A stretch of 64,000 nt of DNA. Source: Corticibacter populi (lineage in GTDB: Bacteria; Pseudomonadota; Gammaproteobacteria; Burkholderiales; Burkholderiaceae_C). Location: contig NZ_SGWR01000005.1 in NCBI RefSeq assembly GCF_004217315.1, positions 372,001 to 436,000 of the forward strand. The letters run 5' to 3'. The notes beneath the pieces were generated by a model. The model was not told the DNA's origin, did no database searches, and saw only the letters and a program-made list of their open reading frames with translations. Each line of letters opens with the position of its first letter. The stretch's first letter is position 1. The translations under genes and the position numbers were made by a program. Below are positions 30,367-40,876 of this stretch, one piece after another.

Positions 30367-30846
30367 ATGACTGAAGAGGTAGTGGAGAGCCGGCTGGCCG
30401 GAATTCTGGAAGAGCGGCTGGCAGAGGCCGAACGCGAGCAACTGGGCTATGCCGGCGGCGTTACGCCCCAGGAGGCCTGGTCGCTGGCGCAGGCGGGGGA
30501 TGCCGTGCTGGTGGATGTGCGGTCTGGCGAGGAGCTGGCCTTCGTCGGTCGCGTGCCCGGCAGTGTGCATGTGGCCTGGGCCACGGGCACCGCGTTGACG
30601 CGCAATCCGCGCTTCGTGCGCGAGCTGGAAGCCAAGCTGGCCTCGCATGGCGGCAAGGAGGCGGTGGCGCTGCTGCTGTGCCGTTCGGGCAAGCGTTCGG
30701 TGCTGGCCGCCAAGGCGGCGACCCAGGCCGGATTCACCCATGTGTTCAATGTGCTCGAGGGTTTCGAGGGCGAGATCGATGCCAGCGGCCAGCGCGGTCA
30801 CGGCGACGGCTGGCGCTTTCACGGCCTGCCCTGGATACAGGACTGA
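30367..30846 (+). CDS. rhodanese-domain sulfurtransferase
   Basis: 159 residues, a single rhodanese domain (about 28-155) with an extra N-terminal helix. The active-site loop CRSGKRS carries the catalytic Cys that receives sulfane sulfur, and the LVDVRSGEELAFVGRVPGSVHV entry is typical. ATG 30367 is preceded by CAGGAGATCACG, a good ribosome site. It is the first gene of the sulfur compartment locus, 66 bp before the serine acetyltransferase gene. It probably passes sulfur to or from the cysteine desulfurase encoded downstream, or handles sulfide. Rhodaneses are frequent neighbours of family 2A encapsulins. Confidence 0.92.
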   Translation: MTEEVVESRLAGILEERLAEAEREQLGYAGGVTPQEAWSLAQAGDAVLVDVRSGEELAFVGRVPGSVHVAWATGTALTRNPRFVRELEAKLASHGGKEAVALLLCRSGKRSVLAAKAATQAGFTHVFNVLEGFEGEIDASGQRGHGDGWRFHGLPWIQD

Positions 30847-30912: not shown

Positions 30913-31833
30913 ATGGCGAACTACGATATCCAGGCCATCGTCCAGGCACTGCACCAGGTGCGCGACGATTGGCGCGATTCCCAGAGTCGGGTGAGGGACC
31001 CGTCCGCGCGCGAGCTGCCATCGCCCGAGGCGGTGCGTCACATCATCGAGCAGCTCAAGGGCGCGCTGTTTCCGATGCGGCTGGGCCCGGAGGACCTGCA
31101 CCACGAGAATGAGGATTACTACGTCGGTTACACGCTGGGCGCGGCGCTGCATTCGCTGCAGCGCCAGGCACGGCTGGAACTGGCGTTCAATGCCCGCAAC
31201 GGCGAGGCGGATGCCCAGGCCATCAGCGACCGTGCCGGTGCAGCAGTGGGCGCGCTGGCGGCGCAGCTACCGGCCATCCGGCGCTTGCTCGACAGCGACG
31301 TGGTGGCCGCCTTCAAGGGGGATCCGGCGGCACTGAGCGTCGACGAGATTTTGCTGTCCTATCCGGGCATCCAGGCGATCATTCACCATCGCGTGGCGCA
31401 CGTGCTCTATCAGCACGGCCTGCGCCTGTTGGCGCGGCTGATCGCCGAGCAGGCCCACAGCCGCACCGGCATCGACATCCATCCCGGCGCGGAGATCGGC
31501 GCCGGCTTCTTCATCGACCATGGCACTGGCGTCGTCATCGGCGAGACTGCACGCATCGGCGAGAACGTGCGCATCTATCAGGCCGTCACGCTCGGCGCCA
31601 AGCGCTTCGCCACCGACGAGGCCGGCAATCTGCGCAAGGGGGAACCGCGCCATCCCATCGTCGAGGACGGGGTGGTGATCTATGCCGGGGCGACGATTCT
31701 CGGCCGCGTGACGCTGGGCAAGGGCGCCGTGATCGGCGGCAACGTCTGGGTTACCGAGAGTGTTCCGGCCGGCGGCAGTGTGTCGCAGGCCAGCCTGCGC
31801 CGGGAACAGCGCGACGAACCTGGATCCAGCTGA
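30913..31833 (+). CDS. cysE: serine O-acetyltransferase (CysE/EpsC type)
   Basis: 306 residues. It makes O-acetylserine, the carbon acceptor for sulfide in cysteine synthesis. An N-terminal alpha-helical domain (about 1-180) precedes left-handed beta-helix hexapeptide repeats (IDIHPGAEIGAGFFIDHGTGVVIGE..., then GENVRIYQAVTLGA). The His in IDHGTGV is the catalytic base region. The C-terminal tail is short and polar. It lies between the rhodanese and the XRE regulator, 17 bp before the latter. A chromosomal duplicate of cysE dedicated to the compartment is likely; the housekeeping copy would be elsewhere. Confidence 0.94.
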   Translation: MANYDIQAIVQALHQVRDDWRDSQSRVRDPSARELPSPEAVRHIIEQLKGALFPMRLGPEDLHHENEDYYVGYTLGAALHSLQRQARLELAFNARNGEADAQAISDRAGAAVGALAAQLPAIRRLLDSDVVAAFKGDPAALSVDEILLSYPGIQAIIHHRVAHVLYQHGLRLLARLIAEQAHSRTGIDIHPGAEIGAGFFIDHGTGVVIGETARIGENVRIYQAVTLGAKRFATDEAGNLRKGEPRHPIVEDGVVIYAGATILGRVTLGKGAVIGGNVWVTESVPAGGSVSQASLRREQRDEPGSS

Positions 31834-31850: not shown

Positions 31851-32234
31851 ATGAGCATGACCTCTGCAAGCCTCTCTCCCCCGCTGTCTTTTGCCGTCAA
31901 GCAAGGGCAGGCCCGAGCCGATGCCAGCACGGGCCTGAAGGCACTTCTCGTGGAAAACCTCGGCATCGCGGTGCGCCAGCTGCGCGAGAAGCAGGGCTGG
32001 TCCCAGGAGGAACTGGCCGAGCGCTCGGGCCTCAACCGCTCCTACGTCGGGGAAGTCGAGCGTGGCCGTGTCGTGGCTTCGGTCGTGACGGCGCAGAAGA
32101 TCGCGCAGGCGCTCGATGTCAGCGTCGTCGATCTGTTTGCGCAGTGCGAGACCATTGCACGTCTGCGCGCCAGGCCTTCCGCGCCGCCGGCGCTGCGGCC
32201 TTCATCCTTGCCGGACGAAGATGGCAGACGCTGA
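31851..32234 (+). CDS. XRE-family HTH regulator of the sulfur compartment locus
   Basis: 127 residues. A Cro/CI-type HTH spans about 36-95 (NLGIAVRQLREKQGWSQEELAERSGLNRSYVGEVERG), with unstructured, Pro-rich tails. No effector domain is visible. It may start at the first or third codon (MSM). It is tightly spaced after cysE and 256 bp before the encapsulin gene, so it probably controls the shell/cargo promoter in that gap. Its ligand is unknown. Confidence 0.88.
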   Translation: MSMTSASLSPPLSFAVKQGQARADASTGLKALLVENLGIAVRQLREKQGWSQEELAERSGLNRSYVGEVERGRVVASVVTAQKIAQALDVSVVDLFAQCETIARLRARPSAPPALRPSSLPDEDGRR

Positions 32235-32330: not shown

Positions 32331-32429
32331 TGGTGGTGATAGCCGGTTGAGCGGTGCAGAGCCAGTCGGGACACTATCGCTGTTCGGGTGATCGAGCCGA
32401 TGGCCTTCAATGGCTTTCATCCTGATCCG

Positions 32430-32468
32430 CCTTTTTCTTTTCCTCTTCCTTTTCCCTTTCCTTCTTCT
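32430..32468 (+). other. 39-nt uninterrupted pyrimidine tract
   Basis: Positions 32430-32468 contain only C and T, ending 22 bp before the encapsulin ATG. It lies in the untranslated leader; the alternative ATG at 32410 would translate it as a Phe/Leu run, which I reject. Confidence 0.9.
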
Positions 32469-32490
32469 GAATCAACCGGAGAGCACTGCC

Positions 32491-33429
32491 ATGAGCGCAA
32501 CCGTTGGCGGCACCACCGCCCTTGGCGACAACGCCGCAAGACAACTGGCCAACGCCACCAAGACCGCCCCGCAACTGGCCACCATCACGCCGCGGTGGCT
32601 GACGCACCTGCTGCAGTGGGTGCCGGTCGAGGCGGGCATCTATCGGGTCAACCAGGTCAAGAACCCCGAGAACATCAAGGTCACCTGCACTGCCAAGGAG
32701 CACGAGAACCAGCTGCCGCGCACCTATGTCGACTACGACGAAAAGCCGCGCGAGTACTTCCTCAACGCCGTCTCCACCGTGCTGGATGTGCACACTCGCA
32801 TCTCCGACCTCTACAGCAGCCCGCACGACCAGATCAAGGAGCAATTGCGTCTGACGATCGAGACGATCAAGGAAAATCAGGAAAGCGAACTGATCAACAA
32901 CCCCGACTATGGCCTGCTGGCACAGGTGACGGACGAGCAGCGCATCTTCCCGCTCTCGGGCGCACCGACGCCGGACGACCTCGATGAGTTGCTGACCAAG
33001 GTCTGGAAGGAACCGGCCTTTTTCCTGGCCCACCCGCTGGCGATTGCCGCCTTCGGCCGCGAGGCCACGCGCCGCGGCACGCCGCCGCCGACGGTGAGCC
33101 TGTTCGGTTCGCAGTTCATCACCTGGCGCGGCATTCCGCTGATCCCGTCGGACAAGGTGCCGGTGGCCGACGGCAAGAGCAAGATCCTGCTGCTGCGCGT
33201 GGGCGATCGCCGCCAGGGCGTGGTGGGGCTGTTCCAGCCGGGGCTGCCGGGCGAGCAAAGCCCGGGCCTGTCGGTGCGTTTCATGGGCATCAACAACCAC
33301 GCCATCGCGTCTTATCTGATCTCGCTGTACTGCTCGCTGGCCGTGCTCACGCCCGATGCGCTGGCCGTGCTCGACGACGTCGAGATCAACAGGTACCACG
33401 ACTATTCCGTGCTCGACACCTACAAGTAA
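32491..33429 (+). CDS. srpI: family 2A (SrpI-type) encapsulin shell protein
   Basis: 312 residues from ATG 32491 (GGAG 12 nt upstream). It matches the SrpI/family 2A encapsulins, which have the HK97 phage capsid fold and self-assemble into protein cages. Cues: PRWLTHLLQWVPVEAGIYRVNQV near the N-terminus, the VDYDEKPREYFLNAVSTVLDVHTRISDLYSSPHDQIKEQLRLTIE E-loop/helix region (about 80-125), and the C-terminal SYLISLYCSLAVLTPDALAVLDDVEINRYHDYSVLDTYK tail. There is no N-terminal cargo-enzyme fusion. It is directly followed, 15 bp later, by the cysteine desulfurase, the established cargo class of this family. It acts as a cytoplasmic compartment handling sulfur. Confidence 0.93.
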   Translation: MSATVGGTTALGDNAARQLANATKTAPQLATITPRWLTHLLQWVPVEAGIYRVNQVKNPENIKVTCTAKEHENQLPRTYVDYDEKPREYFLNAVSTVLDVHTRISDLYSSPHDQIKEQLRLTIETIKENQESELINNPDYGLLAQVTDEQRIFPLSGAPTPDDLDELLTKVWKEPAFFLAHPLAIAAFGREATRRGTPPPTVSLFGSQFITWRGIPLIPSDKVPVADGKSKILLLRVGDRRQGVVGLFQPGLPGEQSPGLSVRFMGINNHAIASYLISLYCSLAVLTPDALAVLDDVEINRYHDYSVLDTYK

Positions 33430-33444
33430 CCGGGGGGAAGTGTC

Positions 33445-35586
33445 TTGACTTCTACCGCAACCTCCAAACCAGCCGGGGCTGGCAGCGCGGATGCGCGCGA
33501 CGCCGCAGCGCTCCCGCAGGCACCGGAGACGCCGATCGATCCGACTGCGTTGGCGCAGTTGGCCACGGCGTTCTTCCGGGCCCTGCCGGGGGAGGCCGGG
33601 TCGCCGGCCGGCCTGCAGTCGGCCAGCGGCGGCGCGGGCGTCACGCCGCTGACGGTGCCGGCCAGCGCAGGTACCGTCAGCAACGAGCTGCCGTTCGGCA
33701 AACAGCCCCAGGCCAATCTGGCGCCGGGCGGCTCGCCGCTGGCCAGCCCGTCCGGTACCTCGCCGAATGTGCCTGGCACGCCAATCCCGCAGGGACAGGT
33801 GCCGGGGGCCAATTTCATCCCCTCTTCGCATGCGCAGGTGCTGTCGCTGGGCAATCGCGCCGGCGTGGCCTTGCCGCATGCGCAGGCCGGCAATGGCGTG
33901 CCGGACAAGGCCTATACCAGCCTGCCGGCCTACGAGCCCAAGCTCGGCGGCATCACCGCCGGTGTGCCAGAGGCGCATGCGGGCACCGGCGCGGCCGCGG
34001 CCCAGCACCCTGCCGGCGGCGCCGCGCCGTTCTACTTTTCCGGCGATGACTATGGTGTGCCGTCGCCCGGCGGCGCCGGCACGGACGCGCCTGCGGCGCC
34101 CGCCGCAGGCGGGTTCGGGCTGGACGCGTTGAGCCGCCAGGCCATTGCGGCGCTCAATGGGCAGGGCCAGCAGGCCGTGCCCTCGGTGCCGTCGAACCTG
34201 CCAGGCGCGGACAGCGCGTCGGCGAGTGCCGCGCCGGCTGGTGCGCCGCAGTACTATTTCGTCGATTCGGTGGTGTTGCCCAGTGGCTATGTGACGCCGG
34301 CCAAGCCCCACCCCCACGGCGGGGCGCAGGCGGTGCCACAGGCCGAGCGGGGCCACCGCCCGGCATTCGACGTCAACGCCGTGCGGAGGGATTTTCCGAT
34401 CCTCTCCGAACGTGTCAACGGCAAGCAACTGGTGTGGCTGGACAACGCCGCCACCACGCACAAGCCGCGCCAGGTGATCGAGCGCATCTCGCACTTCTAC
34501 GAGCACGAGAACTCGAACATCCACCGCGCCGCGCATGAGCTGGCGGCGCGCGCCACCGACGCCTACGAGCACGCCCGCGAGGTCGTGCGGCGCTTCATCA
34601 ACGCGCCCGACGTCAACGAGGTGATCTTCCTGCGCGGTACCACCGAGGCCATCAACCTGGTGGCCAAGGCCTGGGGCGGCCAGCACGTGGGCGAGGGCGA
34701 CGAGATCATCGTCAGCCACCTGGAGCACCACGCCAACATCGTGCCGTGGCAGCAACTGGCGCAGGCCAAGGGTGCCAAGCTGCGCGTGATTCCGGTCGAT
34801 GACCAGGGCCAGGTGCGGCTGGACGAGTACCAGAAGCTGATCAACGACCGCACCAAGATCGTCTCGGTCGCGCATGTCTCCAACACGCTGGGCACGGTGG
34901 TTCCGGTCAAGCAGATCGTCGAGATCGCCAAGCGCCGCGGCATCACCACGGTGATCGATGGCGCGCAGTCGATCGCGCATACGCCGGTCGACGTGCAGGA
35001 CTTCGGTGCCGATTTCTTCGTGTTCTCCGGGCACAAGATCTTTGGCCCGACCGGCATCGGCGTGCTGTGGGGCCGCCGTGCGGTGCTCGAAGACACACCG
35101 CCCTGGCAGGGGGGCGGCAACATGATTGCCGACGTGACTTTCGAGAAAACGGTGTTCCAGCCGCTGCCCAACACCTTCGAGGCCGGCACCGGCAACATCG
35201 CCGATGCGGTGGGCTTGGGAGCGGCACTGGAGTATGTCGAGCGCCTGGGCATCGAGAACATCAGCCAGTACGAGCATTCGCTGGTCGATTACGGCATGGC
35301 GCAACTGGGTGCCATTCCCGGCCTGCGGCTGATCGGCACGGTGCCTGGCAAGGCCAGCGTGCTGTCTTTCGTGCTCGATGGCTACAGCACCGATGAAGTT
35401 GGCCAGGTGCTCAACAGCGAAGGCATTGCGGTGCGCACCGGCCACCACTGCGCCCAGCCGATCCTGCGCCGCTTTGGCGTGGAGACGGCGGTGCGGCCCT
35501 CGCTGGCGTTCTACAACACCTTTGGTGAGATCGACCAACTGGTGGCCATCATCCGCCGGCTGGCATCGCAGCGGCGCAGCGGCTGA
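33445..35586 (+). CDS. SufS-type cysteine desulfurase with long disordered cargo-loading N-terminus
   Basis: 713 residues from a TTG start (33445) with GGGGGGAAG upstream. Residues 1-305 are Ala/Pro/Gly-rich and without fold-like pattern, but carry aromatic islands: FYFSGDDYG (196-204), YYFVDSVVLPSGY (270-282) and AYEPKLGG (162-169). Residues 306-713 are a complete class II desulfurase: aldimine Lys at about 531 (FSGHKIFG), PLP-binding Asp at about 505 (VIDGAQS) and catalytic Cys at about 669 (TGHHCAQP). It removes sulfur from cysteine to form a persulfide and alanine. The extension matches the known encapsulation region of family 2A cargo enzymes. Confidence 0.94.
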   Translation: MTSTATSKPAGAGSADARDAAALPQAPETPIDPTALAQLATAFFRALPGEAGSPAGLQSASGGAGVTPLTVPASAGTVSNELPFGKQPQANLAPGGSPLASPSGTSPNVPGTPIPQGQVPGANFIPSSHAQVLSLGNRAGVALPHAQAGNGVPDKAYTSLPAYEPKLGGITAGVPEAHAGTGAAAAQHPAGGAAPFYFSGDDYGVPSPGGAGTDAPAAPAAGGFGLDALSRQAIAALNGQGQQAVPSVPSNLPGADSASASAAPAGAPQYYFVDSVVLPSGYVTPAKPHPHGGAQAVPQAERGHRPAFDVNAVRRDFPILSERVNGKQLVWLDNAATTHKPRQVIERISHFYEHENSNIHRAAHELAARATDAYEHAREVVRRFINAPDVNEVIFLRGTTEAINLVAKAWGGQHVGEGDEIIVSHLEHHANIVPWQQLAQAKGAKLRVIPVDDQGQVRLDEYQKLINDRTKIVSVAHVSNTLGTVVPVKQIVEIAKRRGITTVIDGAQSIAHTPVDVQDFGADFFVFSGHKIFGPTGIGVLWGRRAVLEDTPPWQGGGNMIADVTFEKTVFQPLPNTFEAGTGNIADAVGLGAALEYVERLGIENISQYEHSLVDYGMAQLGAIPGLRLIGTVPGKASVLSFVLDGYSTDEVGQVLNSEGIAVRTGHHCAQPILRRFGVETAVRPSLAFYNTFGEIDQLVAIIRRLASQRRSG

Positions 35587-35610
35587 AGCCATTGCGCATC
35601 GGGTGCGTGG

Positions 35611-35629
35611 CGAGACTTTGAACACGCTC
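35611..35629. repeat. stem-loop repeat copy 2 (CGAGACTTTGAACACGCTC)
   Basis: Identical over 19 bp to 27996-28014. The left arm differs (GGGTGCGTGG) but a partial hairpin can still form, GCGTG/CACGC with an outer GG/CC extension. Located 25 bp after the desulfurase stop. Confidence 0.8.
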
Positions 35630-35668
35630 CCGGCGCGCTCGCCCGGCCGGTGACGCAAAGGTGGCGGG

Positions 35669-37986: not shown

Positions 37987-38799
37987 ATGATCAGAGACAT
38001 TCGCCGTTTTCTTGCCGTCAGTGCGTTGGCCCTGGCGGTGCTGCCTGCGGTGGCGGCCGACAAGCTGCGCATCGGCGTGGTGCCGGGCGCCTATGCCGAT
38101 TCGATCAACGTGGCGGCCAAGGATGCGAAGACGCAGGGCATCGACGTGGAGGTGATCGAATTCACCGACTGGACCACGCCCAATGTAGCGGTCAACAGCG
38201 GCGACATCGACATCAACTACTTCCAGCACCAGCCCTTCCTCGACAACGCGGTGCAGAAGAACGGCTTCAAGCTCGCCAGCGCGGGCACCGGCATCCTGGC
38301 CAATGTGGGCCTGTATTCGCTCAAGCATCCATCGGTCGGGCAGGTGCCGCAGGGCGGCAAGGTCGGCATCGCCAATGACCCGGTCAACCAGGGGCGCGGC
38401 CTGCTGCTGCTGCAGAAGGTGGGGCTGATCACCCTCAAGCCCGATGTCGGTTACCTGGGCACCATCGACGACATCGTCGAGAACCCCAGGAAGCTGAGCT
38501 TCACCGAAGTGGAAGGGCCGCAACTGGTGCGCATCACCGGGGATGTGGACATCGCGCAGGGGTACCCCCACTTCATCGTCGCCGCCAAGGCCTTCGACCC
38601 GTCCAGCGGCCTGGCGTACTCGGGCATCGAGGATGCGCAGTTCGCCATCCAGTTCGTCGTCAAGGACGACCGCGTGCAGGACCCGGTGGTGCAGAAGTTC
38701 ATCCAGATCTACCAGAACTCGCAGGCCGTCAGGGACGAGACGCACCGCGCCTTCTCCAATGACGACCGGCTCTACACGCTCGCCTGGCTGAAGAAGTGA
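37987..38799 (+). CDS. MetQ-like periplasmic binding protein 1 (divergent)
   Basis: 270 residues. Cleavable signal peptide ending AVAA, with no lipobox Cys, so secreted rather than a lipoprotein like E. coli MetQ. NLPA/MetQ fold: LRIGVVPGAYADS at the start, NYFQHQPFLDN (His kept) and [15 protein letters not shown]. The pocket differs from MetQ: FTDWTTPN instead of FSDYVLPN, and the Asn that contacts the amino group of methionine is missing (IAQGYPHFIVAA segment). It probably binds a different, sulfur-containing compound. First gene of the supercluster, 48 bp before its paralogue. Confidence 0.9.
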   Translation: MIRDIRRFLAVSALALAVLPAVAADKLRIGVVPGAYADSINVAAKDAKTQGIDVEVIEFTDWTTPNVAVNSGDIDINYFQHQPFLDNAVQKNGFKLASAGTGILANVGLYSLKHPSVGQVPQGGKVGIANDPVNQGRGLLLLQKVGLITLKPDVGYLGTIDDIVENPRKLSFTEVEGPQLVRITGDVDIAQGYPHFIVAAKAFDPSSGLAYSGIEDAQFAIQFVVKDDRVQDPVVQKFIQIYQNSQAVRDETHRAFSNDDRLYTLAWLKK

Positions 38800-38847
38800 G
38801 ACCGGTGGATGCCATCAAGAGCGCGCAATGACGTGAAAGGAGTGCGG

Positions 38848-39660
38848 ATGCCATTCAAATGCAAGTCGTGGCTGGTATGGCTGGGGGCAATGGCTTTGGC
38901 CGCCGCTGGCCATGCCAGCGAGATCGTGCGGGTCGGCTCGACGCCGGGCGCCACCTCGGATGCCGTCGAAGCCCTGGTTGCCGAGGCCAGGGAGCAGGGG
39001 TTGGACGTGCGGTTGATCGAGTTCACCGACTGGACGCTGCCCAACGAAGCCTTGAACAACGGCGACATCGATCTGAACTTCTTCCAGCACCAGGCCTTTC
39101 TGGAGAACGCCGTGCGCGAGCGTGGCTACCGGATCGAGCTGATCGGCCTGGGCCTGCTGCAGAACATCGGCCTGTATTCGAACCGGATCCGGTCGCTCGA
39201 TGCTATTCCCGATGGCGCGCGGGTGTCGGTGCCCAATGACCCGGTGAACCAGGGGCGTGGACTGTTGCTGCTGCAAAAGGCCGGGCTGATCACGCTCAGG
39301 AATGGCGAGGACACGGGCGCCACCGTCAATGACGTGGTGGGCAATCCGAAACACCTCCGCCTCTTCGAGATCGAAGGCCCGCAGCTCATCCATTCGCTGC
39401 AGGATGTGGACCTGGCGGTGGTCTGGCCCAGCTACTTCGTGAACGCCGGCAAGAAGGAGCAGGCCAGCGAGGCGCTGGTGTATTCGGGCATCGCCGATAC
39501 CTATTACGCCATGGGGTTTGCAGCGCGCTCGGACCGCAAGGACGAGCCCCGACTGCGCCGTTTCGTCGAGCTGTTCCAGAACTCGCCGAAGGTGCGCGAG
39601 GTGATCGATGCGCGTTTCGACCACAACAAGAACCTCTACACGCTGCCCTGGCAGCGCTGA
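38848..39660 (+). CDS. MetQ-like periplasmic binding protein 2 (divergent)
   Basis: 270 residues from ATG 38848 (AAAGGAG upstream); an in-frame ATG at 38809 was discarded. Signal peptide ends AGHA, no lipobox. Core pattern [47 protein letters not shown], then [17 protein letters not shown]; the amino-group Asn is replaced here too. Paralogue of binding protein 1. It precedes the MetN gene by 22 bp, so it probably delivers substrate to the MetNI transporter. Confidence 0.9.
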
Positions 39661-39682
39661 GACCAGGGCAGGAGAGCATCCC

Positions 39683-40876
39683 ATGTCAAGTTCATTCGCA
39701 TTGCGCCGCAGCCTGGACCATCTGGCCGAGGTGTTCGTTGACGCCGATGACGCGTCCGCAGCGCCTGCCGCATCAGGCCCGGGCGAGGTCGGGCCTCAGG
39801 CTGCGGCAGCCGGTGGCGCGGTGTCGTTCAGGAAGGTCTCCAAGTTCTACCCATCGTCCGGCGGGGCCGTGCATGCGCTGGCGGACATCAGCCTGGAGGT
39901 GCCCGCAGGCAGCATATTCGGCATCATCGGACGCAGCGGCGCGGGCAAGTCGAGCCTGCTGCGCACCATCAACCGGTTGGAGAAACCCAGCAGCGGACAG
40001 GTGATCGTCGACGGCGTGGACATTGGCACGCTGGGCGAGGCCGAACTCGTTGCGCTGCGCCGGCGCATCGGCATGATCTTCCAGCACTTCAACCTGCTCT
40101 CGGCCAAGACCGTGTACGAGAACGTGGCGCTGCCGCTGCAGGTGGCGGGAGTGCCCCGGGCCGAAGTCACGCGGCGCGTGAACGAACTGCTGGCGCTGGT
40201 GGGCCTGCAGGACAAGCACCACGTGCGCCCGGCGCGTCTCTCGGGCGGGCAAAAGCAGCGCGTGGGCATTGCCCGTGCGCTCGCCACCGGCCCGGAGATC
40301 CTGCTGTGTGACGAAGCCACCTCGGCCTTGGACCCGGAGACCACGCAATCCATACTGCAACTGCTGCGGGACATCAACCGGCGTCTGGGCATCACGGTGA
40401 TCCTGATCACCCACGAGATGAGCGTGATCAGGGAAATTGCGGACCAGGTGCTGGTGCTCGAGCAAGGGCGGATTGCCGAGCTGGGCGCAGTCTGGAAGGT
40501 TTTCGGGGCACCGCAGCACGAGGCCACCAGGGCCTTGCTGGCGCCGCTGCAGCATGGCCTGCCCGATGACCTGCAGACGCGGCTGGTCAAAGAGGCGCCA
40601 CAGGCGGGGCGCTACGAACAGATCCTGCAGCTCTCCTACAGCGGCGAGGGAGGGCTGGAGCCCGACCTCGTGCGCATCGGCCAGGCGCTGCCTGGTGTGC
40701 GGCTGCTGCACGGCGGTGTCGACCGCATCCAGGGCCACGCGCACGGGCGCCTGTTGCTGGCCGTCGATGGCGCGGCGGTGCTGCCCGACCTCCATGCACT
40801 CACGCAAGGCGCGGGTGCCATTGCCCACCATATCGAGGTGCTCGGTTATGTCCCTGAATCTGTCCATTCCCATTGA
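39683..40876 (+). CDS. metN: MetN-type ABC transporter ATP-binding protein
   Basis: 397 residues, longer than E. coli MetN because of an N-terminal extension of about 45 Ala-rich residues. ABC domain from about residue 46: Walker A GRSGAGKS (83-90), Q-loop [10 protein letters not shown], signature [12 protein letters not shown], Walker [14 protein letters not shown]. The C-terminal NIL domain (about 310-397, LSYSGEGG...[17 protein letters not shown]) is the methionine/ligand sensor of MetN. It energises import together with MetI, whose start overlaps the end of this gene by 29 bp. Confidence 0.95.

Follow-up and report, generated by a model that had tools for sequence, protein, structure and literature searches.

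A disordered, multi-island N-terminal tail, probably for cargo loading, on the family 2A encapsulin cysteine desulfurase of Corticibacter populi

The DNA analysed here is a 64,000-nucleotide stretch of the Corticibacter populi genome (contig NZ_SGWR01000005.1, positions 372,001 to 436,000, hereafter the window), and our subject is the N-terminal 305 residues of a cysteine desulfurase, CyD, encoded within it. Judged from its sequence and its neighbour, this protein is the cargo cysteine desulfurase of a family 2A encapsulin operon, and we consider it likely that the 305-residue region is its cargo-loading tail, a flexible tether made of several parts. The kind of tail is already known, loading by such tails having been published for Synechococcus (Nichols et al. 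2021, PMC8049743). The S. elongatus CyD tail, which is disordered, carries LARLANEFFS and AASPYYFLDG, the two motifs of most homologues; residues 1-225 loaded green fluorescent protein best, residues 1-100 loaded less, and residues 155-183, described as bearing AASPYYFLDG, were insufficient for loading alone (PMC8049743). The cargo-loading role that a preliminary description had proposed for the window tail is thus supported through homology to this experiment. The elements concerned are the following.

33445-35586, plus strand: CyD open frame, 713 codons, TTG start
33445..34359, plus strand: disordered N-terminal loading region of CyD, residues 1-305 (probable function); AlphaFold2 confidence mostly below 50, 48% alanine, proline and glycine, match to NF041166
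34360..35586, plus strand: SufS-type cysteine desulfurase catalytic domain, residues 306-713; TIGR01979 at 552 bits, PF00266 at 488 bits
32491..33429, plus strand: family 2A encapsulin shell gene; NF041162 at 530.6 bits, cut-off 380
33430..33447, plus strand: gap from the shell stop to CyD (15 nt, with a GGGGGG Shine-Dalgarno-like run) and the TTG start at 33445-33447

The disordered tail and its conserved islands

CyD matched NF041166 (f2_encap_cargo1, the family 2A encapsulin cargo desulfurase) over residues 25-706 with 883 bits against a cut-off of 800, and the tail alone matched the same profile over residues 24-274 (E 7e-5). Searched by itself against Pfam, the tail gave no match at E values up to 10; a PDB match to PVC gp66 (11fg_C, E 0.48) was judged to be due to chance. 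The catalytic domain is delimited by TIGR01979, matching from residue 312, and Pfam Aminotran_5, from residue 330. Within it K531 (in SGHK) and C669 (in GHHCAQP), which we take to be the pyridoxal phosphate lysine and the active-site cysteine of SufS enzymes, are invariant columns in a 48-row alignment. The adjoining shell gene, 15 nt away, also scored above the family 2B cut-off (421 vs 400), and its best matches among solved chains were PDB 8t6r and 6x8m.

Alanine, proline and glycine make up 147 of the 305 tail residues, and AlphaFold2, run with 48 rows, gave a predicted local distance difference test (pLDDT) score below 50 over most of the region, bearing out both the composition and the disorder noted in the preliminary description. 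The only confident helix of the tail lies at residues 33-45 (block mean 80), with a weak helix at 226-237; of the 712 residues modelled, 282 scored at least 90, most of them positioned in the enzyme. The tail holds two [FYW][FY]F triads, and two or more occur in a fraction of only 6.5e-5 of shuffles of the same tail.

Homologous loci were gathered by protein search (the best 80 of 585 confirmed stretches), by a search of 200 genomes of the window's family and from plasmid records. The 158 sources searched yielded 130 CyD rows with at least 55% catalytic identity after removal of three copies of the window, and the start was chosen by a heuristic for 122 of the 130. Removal of five near copies or odd rows (L032, L122, L133, L144 and L151) and addition of three hand-trimmed rows (L089, L126 and L140) gave 120, which a redundancy filter reduced to 115 tails, mostly from Burkholderiales and including a few family 2B-type rows (L090-L093). 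In L003 and L007 the heuristic placed the start ahead of the TTG with the best Shine-Dalgarno (SD) match, so their listed tail lengths are too long. With these heuristic starts, tail length ranges from 94 to 369 residues (median 248), and the window tail exceeds 108 of the 115, itself counted among them. It is also longer than the cyanobacterial extension of 225 residues (PMC8049743), as the preliminary description had held.

Alignment information along the window row resolves four conserved parts.

33526..33591, plus strand: island 1, residues 28-49, ETPIDPTALAQLATAFFRALPG, with the predicted helix 33-45; occupancy 0.95-1.0 and the highest information, helix block pLDDT 80 and 65
33691..33972, plus strand: island 2, residues 83-176, a disordered core with AYEPKLGG (162-169), from alignment information
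34018..34056, plus strand: island 3, residues 192-204, GAAPFYFSGDDYG, a YYF-type motif
34243..34290, plus strand: island 4, residues 267-282, APQYYFVDSVVLPSGY, a YYF-type motif 24-39 residues before residue 306

Island 1 (LAQLATAFFRALPG, an amphipathic helix) is the most universal part, found in 106 of 115 tails by pattern and in eight more by eye, in which M replaces F (e.g., LARMASAMF). With LAQLATAFF at residue 36, it is the counterpart of the published LARLANEFFS. The window counterparts of the AASPYYFLDG-type motif are FYFS at residue 196 and YYFV at residue 270. YYF-type motifs were counted in two zones, further than 52 residues upstream of the catalytic domain (island 3) and at 52 residues or less from it (island 4): 82 of 115 tails had one in the first zone and 97 in the second, 69 in both and 110 in at least one. 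On average only 1.5 of 115 shuffled tails had a YYF triad and 8.8 the island-1 pattern. Island 2, 94 residues long and carrying GNGVPD and AYEPKLGG, was recognized in 87 of 115 tails by either of two short markers.

The preliminary description had listed three aromatic segments, AYEPKLGG, FYFSGDDYG and YYFVDSVVLPSGY, as regularly spaced motifs. All three strings are there, starting at residues 162, 196 and 270, so that the starts are 34 and 74 residues apart and the regularity does not hold; moreover, the list overlooked the universal helix (28-49) and the core (83-176). The expectation that such segments are conserved among homologues is borne out for the YYF type in general. It is not for FYFSGDDYG (196-204), absent from L003, L146, L007 and L027, four of the seven rows of the clade that contains the window, and island 3 is therefore dispensable near the window. 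AYEPKLGG was rejected as a stand-alone aromatic motif; it sits within the larger core, and YEP occurs in 34 of 115 tails.

Ratios of nonsynonymous to synonymous divergence (dN/dS) were calculated for this seven-row clade and for 32 rows; synonymous divergence is high, so the ratios are rough. In the clade they were 0.26 and 0.27 for islands 1 and 2, 0.38 for island 3 (mostly gaps) and 0.08 for both island 4 and the catalytic part, with 0.31-0.51 for the linkers and the terminal tail. Across 32 rows islands 1-4 gave 0.36, 0.34, 0.32 and 0.20, the catalytic part 0.14 and the remainder 0.50-0.79. Identity in the clade was 0.61 and 0.66 for islands 1 and 2 as against 0.30-0.49, and both are nearly gap-free, island 2 being ungapped at 66% identity; identity and scarcity of gaps set these two islands apart from the linkers better than dN/dS does. 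These comparisons show protein-level constraint that is strong on island 4 and moderate on islands 1 and 2, and by this measure YYFVDSVVLPSGY (270-282) is a real island, constrained like the enzyme in the closest clade.

Start codons of cargo and shell

The open frame 33445-35586 begins with TTG, as first described; no other ATG, GTG or TTG lies between the shell stop and island 1, and a GGGGGG run is found 7 nt upstream of this TTG. In a quick shell tree the window falls within an eight-row clade supported by a Shimodaira-Hasegawa-like approximate likelihood ratio test (SH-aLRT) value of 95. In all eight rows the start with the best SD match is TTG, including L003, where it lies at +231 and an additional in-frame ATG at +156 has a weaker SD, and L007, where it lies at +90. 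An ATG in the CyD frame occurs within the end of the shell gene at 51 of 116 loci; the corresponding window triplet reads ACG and is out of the CyD frame. In the overlapping rows shown (L030-L036 and others) the shell ends, for example, in YHDYPDTYK and a stop, and the other frame opens CyD proteins with starts such as MTxxTPTS.

Labels of start codons depend on the method: in many rows the SD-best start is not the first one that follows the shell stop. By best SD, the cargo starts of 115 rows comprise 30 ATG and 4 TTG within the shell gene and 32 ATG, 31 GTG and 18 TTG after it. For 34 cargo rows only a single start is possible: 11 GTG, 5 TTG and 8 ATG separated from the shell gene and 10 ATG overlapping it, so that non-ATG codons account for 16 of 24 separated rows or 16 of 34 with the overlapping rows included. 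The 116 shell starts by best SD are 111 ATG, 1 GTG and 4 TTG, the four TTG being the same internal codon eight residues before the anchor, and all 62 shells with a single possible start have ATG. Fisher tests of cargo against shell gave p = 7.6e-12 for 16/24 and 3.3e-9 for 16/34, relatedness of rows being ignored. Weak cargo starts beside strong shell starts would fit a system in which enzymes are produced in much smaller numbers than shell subunits.

Whether the TTG matters for stoichiometry or is a neutral marker of its clade, kept by descent, seems to us evenly balanced. The codon marks one eight-row clade, and its retention alone is weak evidence because 27 of 130 fourfold sites are likewise invariant in those rows; furthermore, full AGGAGG matches in L007 and L020 could offset a TTG. 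Against neutrality, among rows with a single possible start, a non-ATG codon opens 16 of 24 separated cargo genes and 0 of 62 shells, and to account for the non-ATG starts the shell tree needs 13 or more changes, counted from first-pass labels with errors such as L113. The TTG has also persisted through turnover of the spacer that follows the shell gene, and the best TTG shifts position in L003 and L007. Strong translational coupling in encapsulin operons was suggested earlier, in passages of PMC7925596 and PMC8229669. The suggestion in the preliminary description that the TTG tunes loading stoichiometry has gained circumstantial backing from its presence throughout the clade and from the contrast of weak cargo with strong shell starts.

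Loading role of the tail

In the reading that we favour, that of a multi-part tether, the amphipathic helix of island 1 would be the main shell-docking element and one or two YYF motifs, island 4 foremost, would add contacts that place the enzyme against the inner surface, close to the three-fold axis. The low-complexity linkers would supply reach, and the weak start would hold cargo scarce relative to the 60 shell subunits. Nichols et al. found cargo density near the three-fold axis, beside shell residues F262 and Y273 (PMC8049743); the equivalent residues of the window shell, F264 and Y275, are invariant in 116 of 116 shells. Parts of the same paper report a negative-stain difference map compatible with one or two enzyme copies and treat residue-level cargo recognition by family 2 encapsulins as still unresolved (PMC8049743). 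In the S. elongatus tail the two helix-like copies begin at residues 26 and 89 and its single YYF at 178; both copies thus start within the loading fragment 1-100, which has no YYF. Aromatic islands alone are therefore unlikely to be the main signal.

Several observations weigh against this reading. The YYF-bearing piece of the S. elongatus tail did not load by itself (PMC8049743), and island 4, which adjoins the enzyme, could act on the enzyme rather than on the shell. Shell and tail could be fused, the shell stop lying in the CyD frame, but the model of the fusion was unfolded (pLDDT 37.9, predicted template modelling score 0.19) and gave no docking site. We infer docking, since this model did not fold, and likewise which island would meet which shell residue and that the weak start would limit cargo. 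In the seven-row clade the dN/dS of islands 1 and 2 (0.26, 0.27) is only a little under that of linkers 50-82 and 177-191 (0.31, 0.34); dS approaches saturation, and disordered regions cannot be aligned with certainty. In addition, the tail of Aliarcobacter locus L117 has 94 residues without any island and still lies beside a shell gene, and another loading signal may exist. This Asn-rich tail belongs to a CyD encoded next to a family 2A shell on a plasmid of Aliarcobacter cibarius.

A more far-reaching form of the tether reading can be entertained only tentatively. In it, the Burkholderiales tail would be a modular zip-like anchor built of the helix, the extended core of 94 residues and one or two YYF clamps, with protein-level selection on each, and cargo number would be set by the choice of start site, be it an ATG that overlaps the shell gene or a GTG or TTG apart from it, with the shell nearly always at ATG and few enzymes per 60-subunit shell.

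Somewhat less probable still, in our estimate, is that island 1 alone loads and that the YYF islands, notably island 4, serve the enzyme through dimer packing, active-site gating or sulfur hand-off. Island 4 precedes the catalytic domain by 24-39 residues and matches its slow rate of evolution in the seven-row clade, residues 272-281 have a slightly raised block pLDDT (57), and the failure of the S. elongatus YYF piece to load by itself (PMC8049743) points the same way. AlphaFold2, however, gave island 4 no confident structure, and YYF motifs also occur far upstream, at the island-3 position, in 82 of 115 tails. It is improbable that the tail acts chiefly as a space-filling or condensing polymer, reserving room in the lumen for sulfur, with loading secondary to length: the wide range of tail lengths (94-369, median 248), the faster evolution of the linkers and the better loading by the full-length tail than by residues 1-100 (PMC8049743) would suit it, whereas discrete conserved islands with dN/dS below that of the intervening stretches are not expected of a pure spacer.

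Distribution, related systems and neighbouring genes

Among 200 genomes of the window's family, 39 had a shell match (38 above the cut-off) and 33 an island-2 match. By comparison of the two lists rather than gene by gene, 31 of the 39 genomes with a shell and 2 of the 161 without one matched island 2, and in 30 of the 31 the match lay within ~1.2 kb of the shell; in the remaining genome, G629, it was on another contig. In one of the two shell-lacking genomes, G708, the matching gene encodes CyD and the retrieved stretch shows no shell match; in the other, G745, the island-2 match is weak and lies in a region without CyD. The G708 locus (L158:2736-6338) is a single open frame that takes in cysteine synthase, serine acetyltransferase and CyD in that order, in which the shell and island 1 are gone and most of island 2 and both YYF motifs are retained; scattered single Ns make an assembly error possible. 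Both genomes of the window's genus in the family sample, G647 and G744, had no shell match, and the system therefore looks patchy within the genus.

Among the closest known systems is that of S. elongatus PCC 7942 (Synpcc7942_B2661, our L113; Nichols et al. 2021, PMC8049743), which likewise has a disordered tail with helix-type and YYF-type motifs on a SufS-type desulfurase, an adjoining 2A shell, and a serine acetyltransferase and a rhodanese in the operon. Its tail differs in having 225 residues (PMC8049743), no island-2 marker, and two helix-like copies with one YYF where the window has one helix and two YYF. The tail of Acinetobacter baumannii CyD (L114) resembles that of the window in having one helix and two YYF motifs (YYFLND and FYFLDL), and the two shells are 82% identical; it differs in its length of ~245 residues (heuristic start), the lack of an island-2 marker and a best start that overlaps the shell gene. 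Targeting peptides of family 1 encapsulins are also short motifs that send cargo to the inner shell surface but, according to passages of PMC7925596 and PMC8229669, are short, usually C-terminal and bound in other shell pockets. The window tail, by contrast, is long, N-terminal and multi-island, and the three-fold-axis placement is that of the cyanobacterial system. In a partial search of the literature we did not meet the island-2 core or the contrast in start codons between cargo and shell.

Upstream of the shell gene the window encodes three further proteins.

31851..32234, plus strand: XRE-type regulator (PF01381)
30913..31833, plus strand: serine O-acetyltransferase, EpsC-like (NF041874, 161 bits, cut-off 150)
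30367..30846, plus strand: rhodanese-domain protein (PF00581)

Directly 5' of the shell ATG lies a pyrimidine-rich stretch (32416-32470; C+T 0.89 over 55 nt); the same leader is pyrimidine-rich in L146 (0.87) and L152 (0.73) and weaker in L003, L142 and L020 (0.51-0.58). A minus-strand open frame of 1083 codons (32407-35658), antisense across shell and CyD, is probably a by-product of GC-rich codon usage. Downstream, positions 37990-40873 encode two lipoproteins of the NlpA type (MetQ-like) and an ABC ATPase whose NIL-domain match falls short of the cut-off, perhaps a set for sulfur or methionine uptake.

The comparison names two shell residues to mutate, F264 and Y275, and the start-codon contrast between cargo and shell is testable by a simple reporter. 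Islands 4 and 1 rank first, followed by island 2, with island 3 dispensable in close kin, and this ranking would guide the design of shorter loading tags for engineering.
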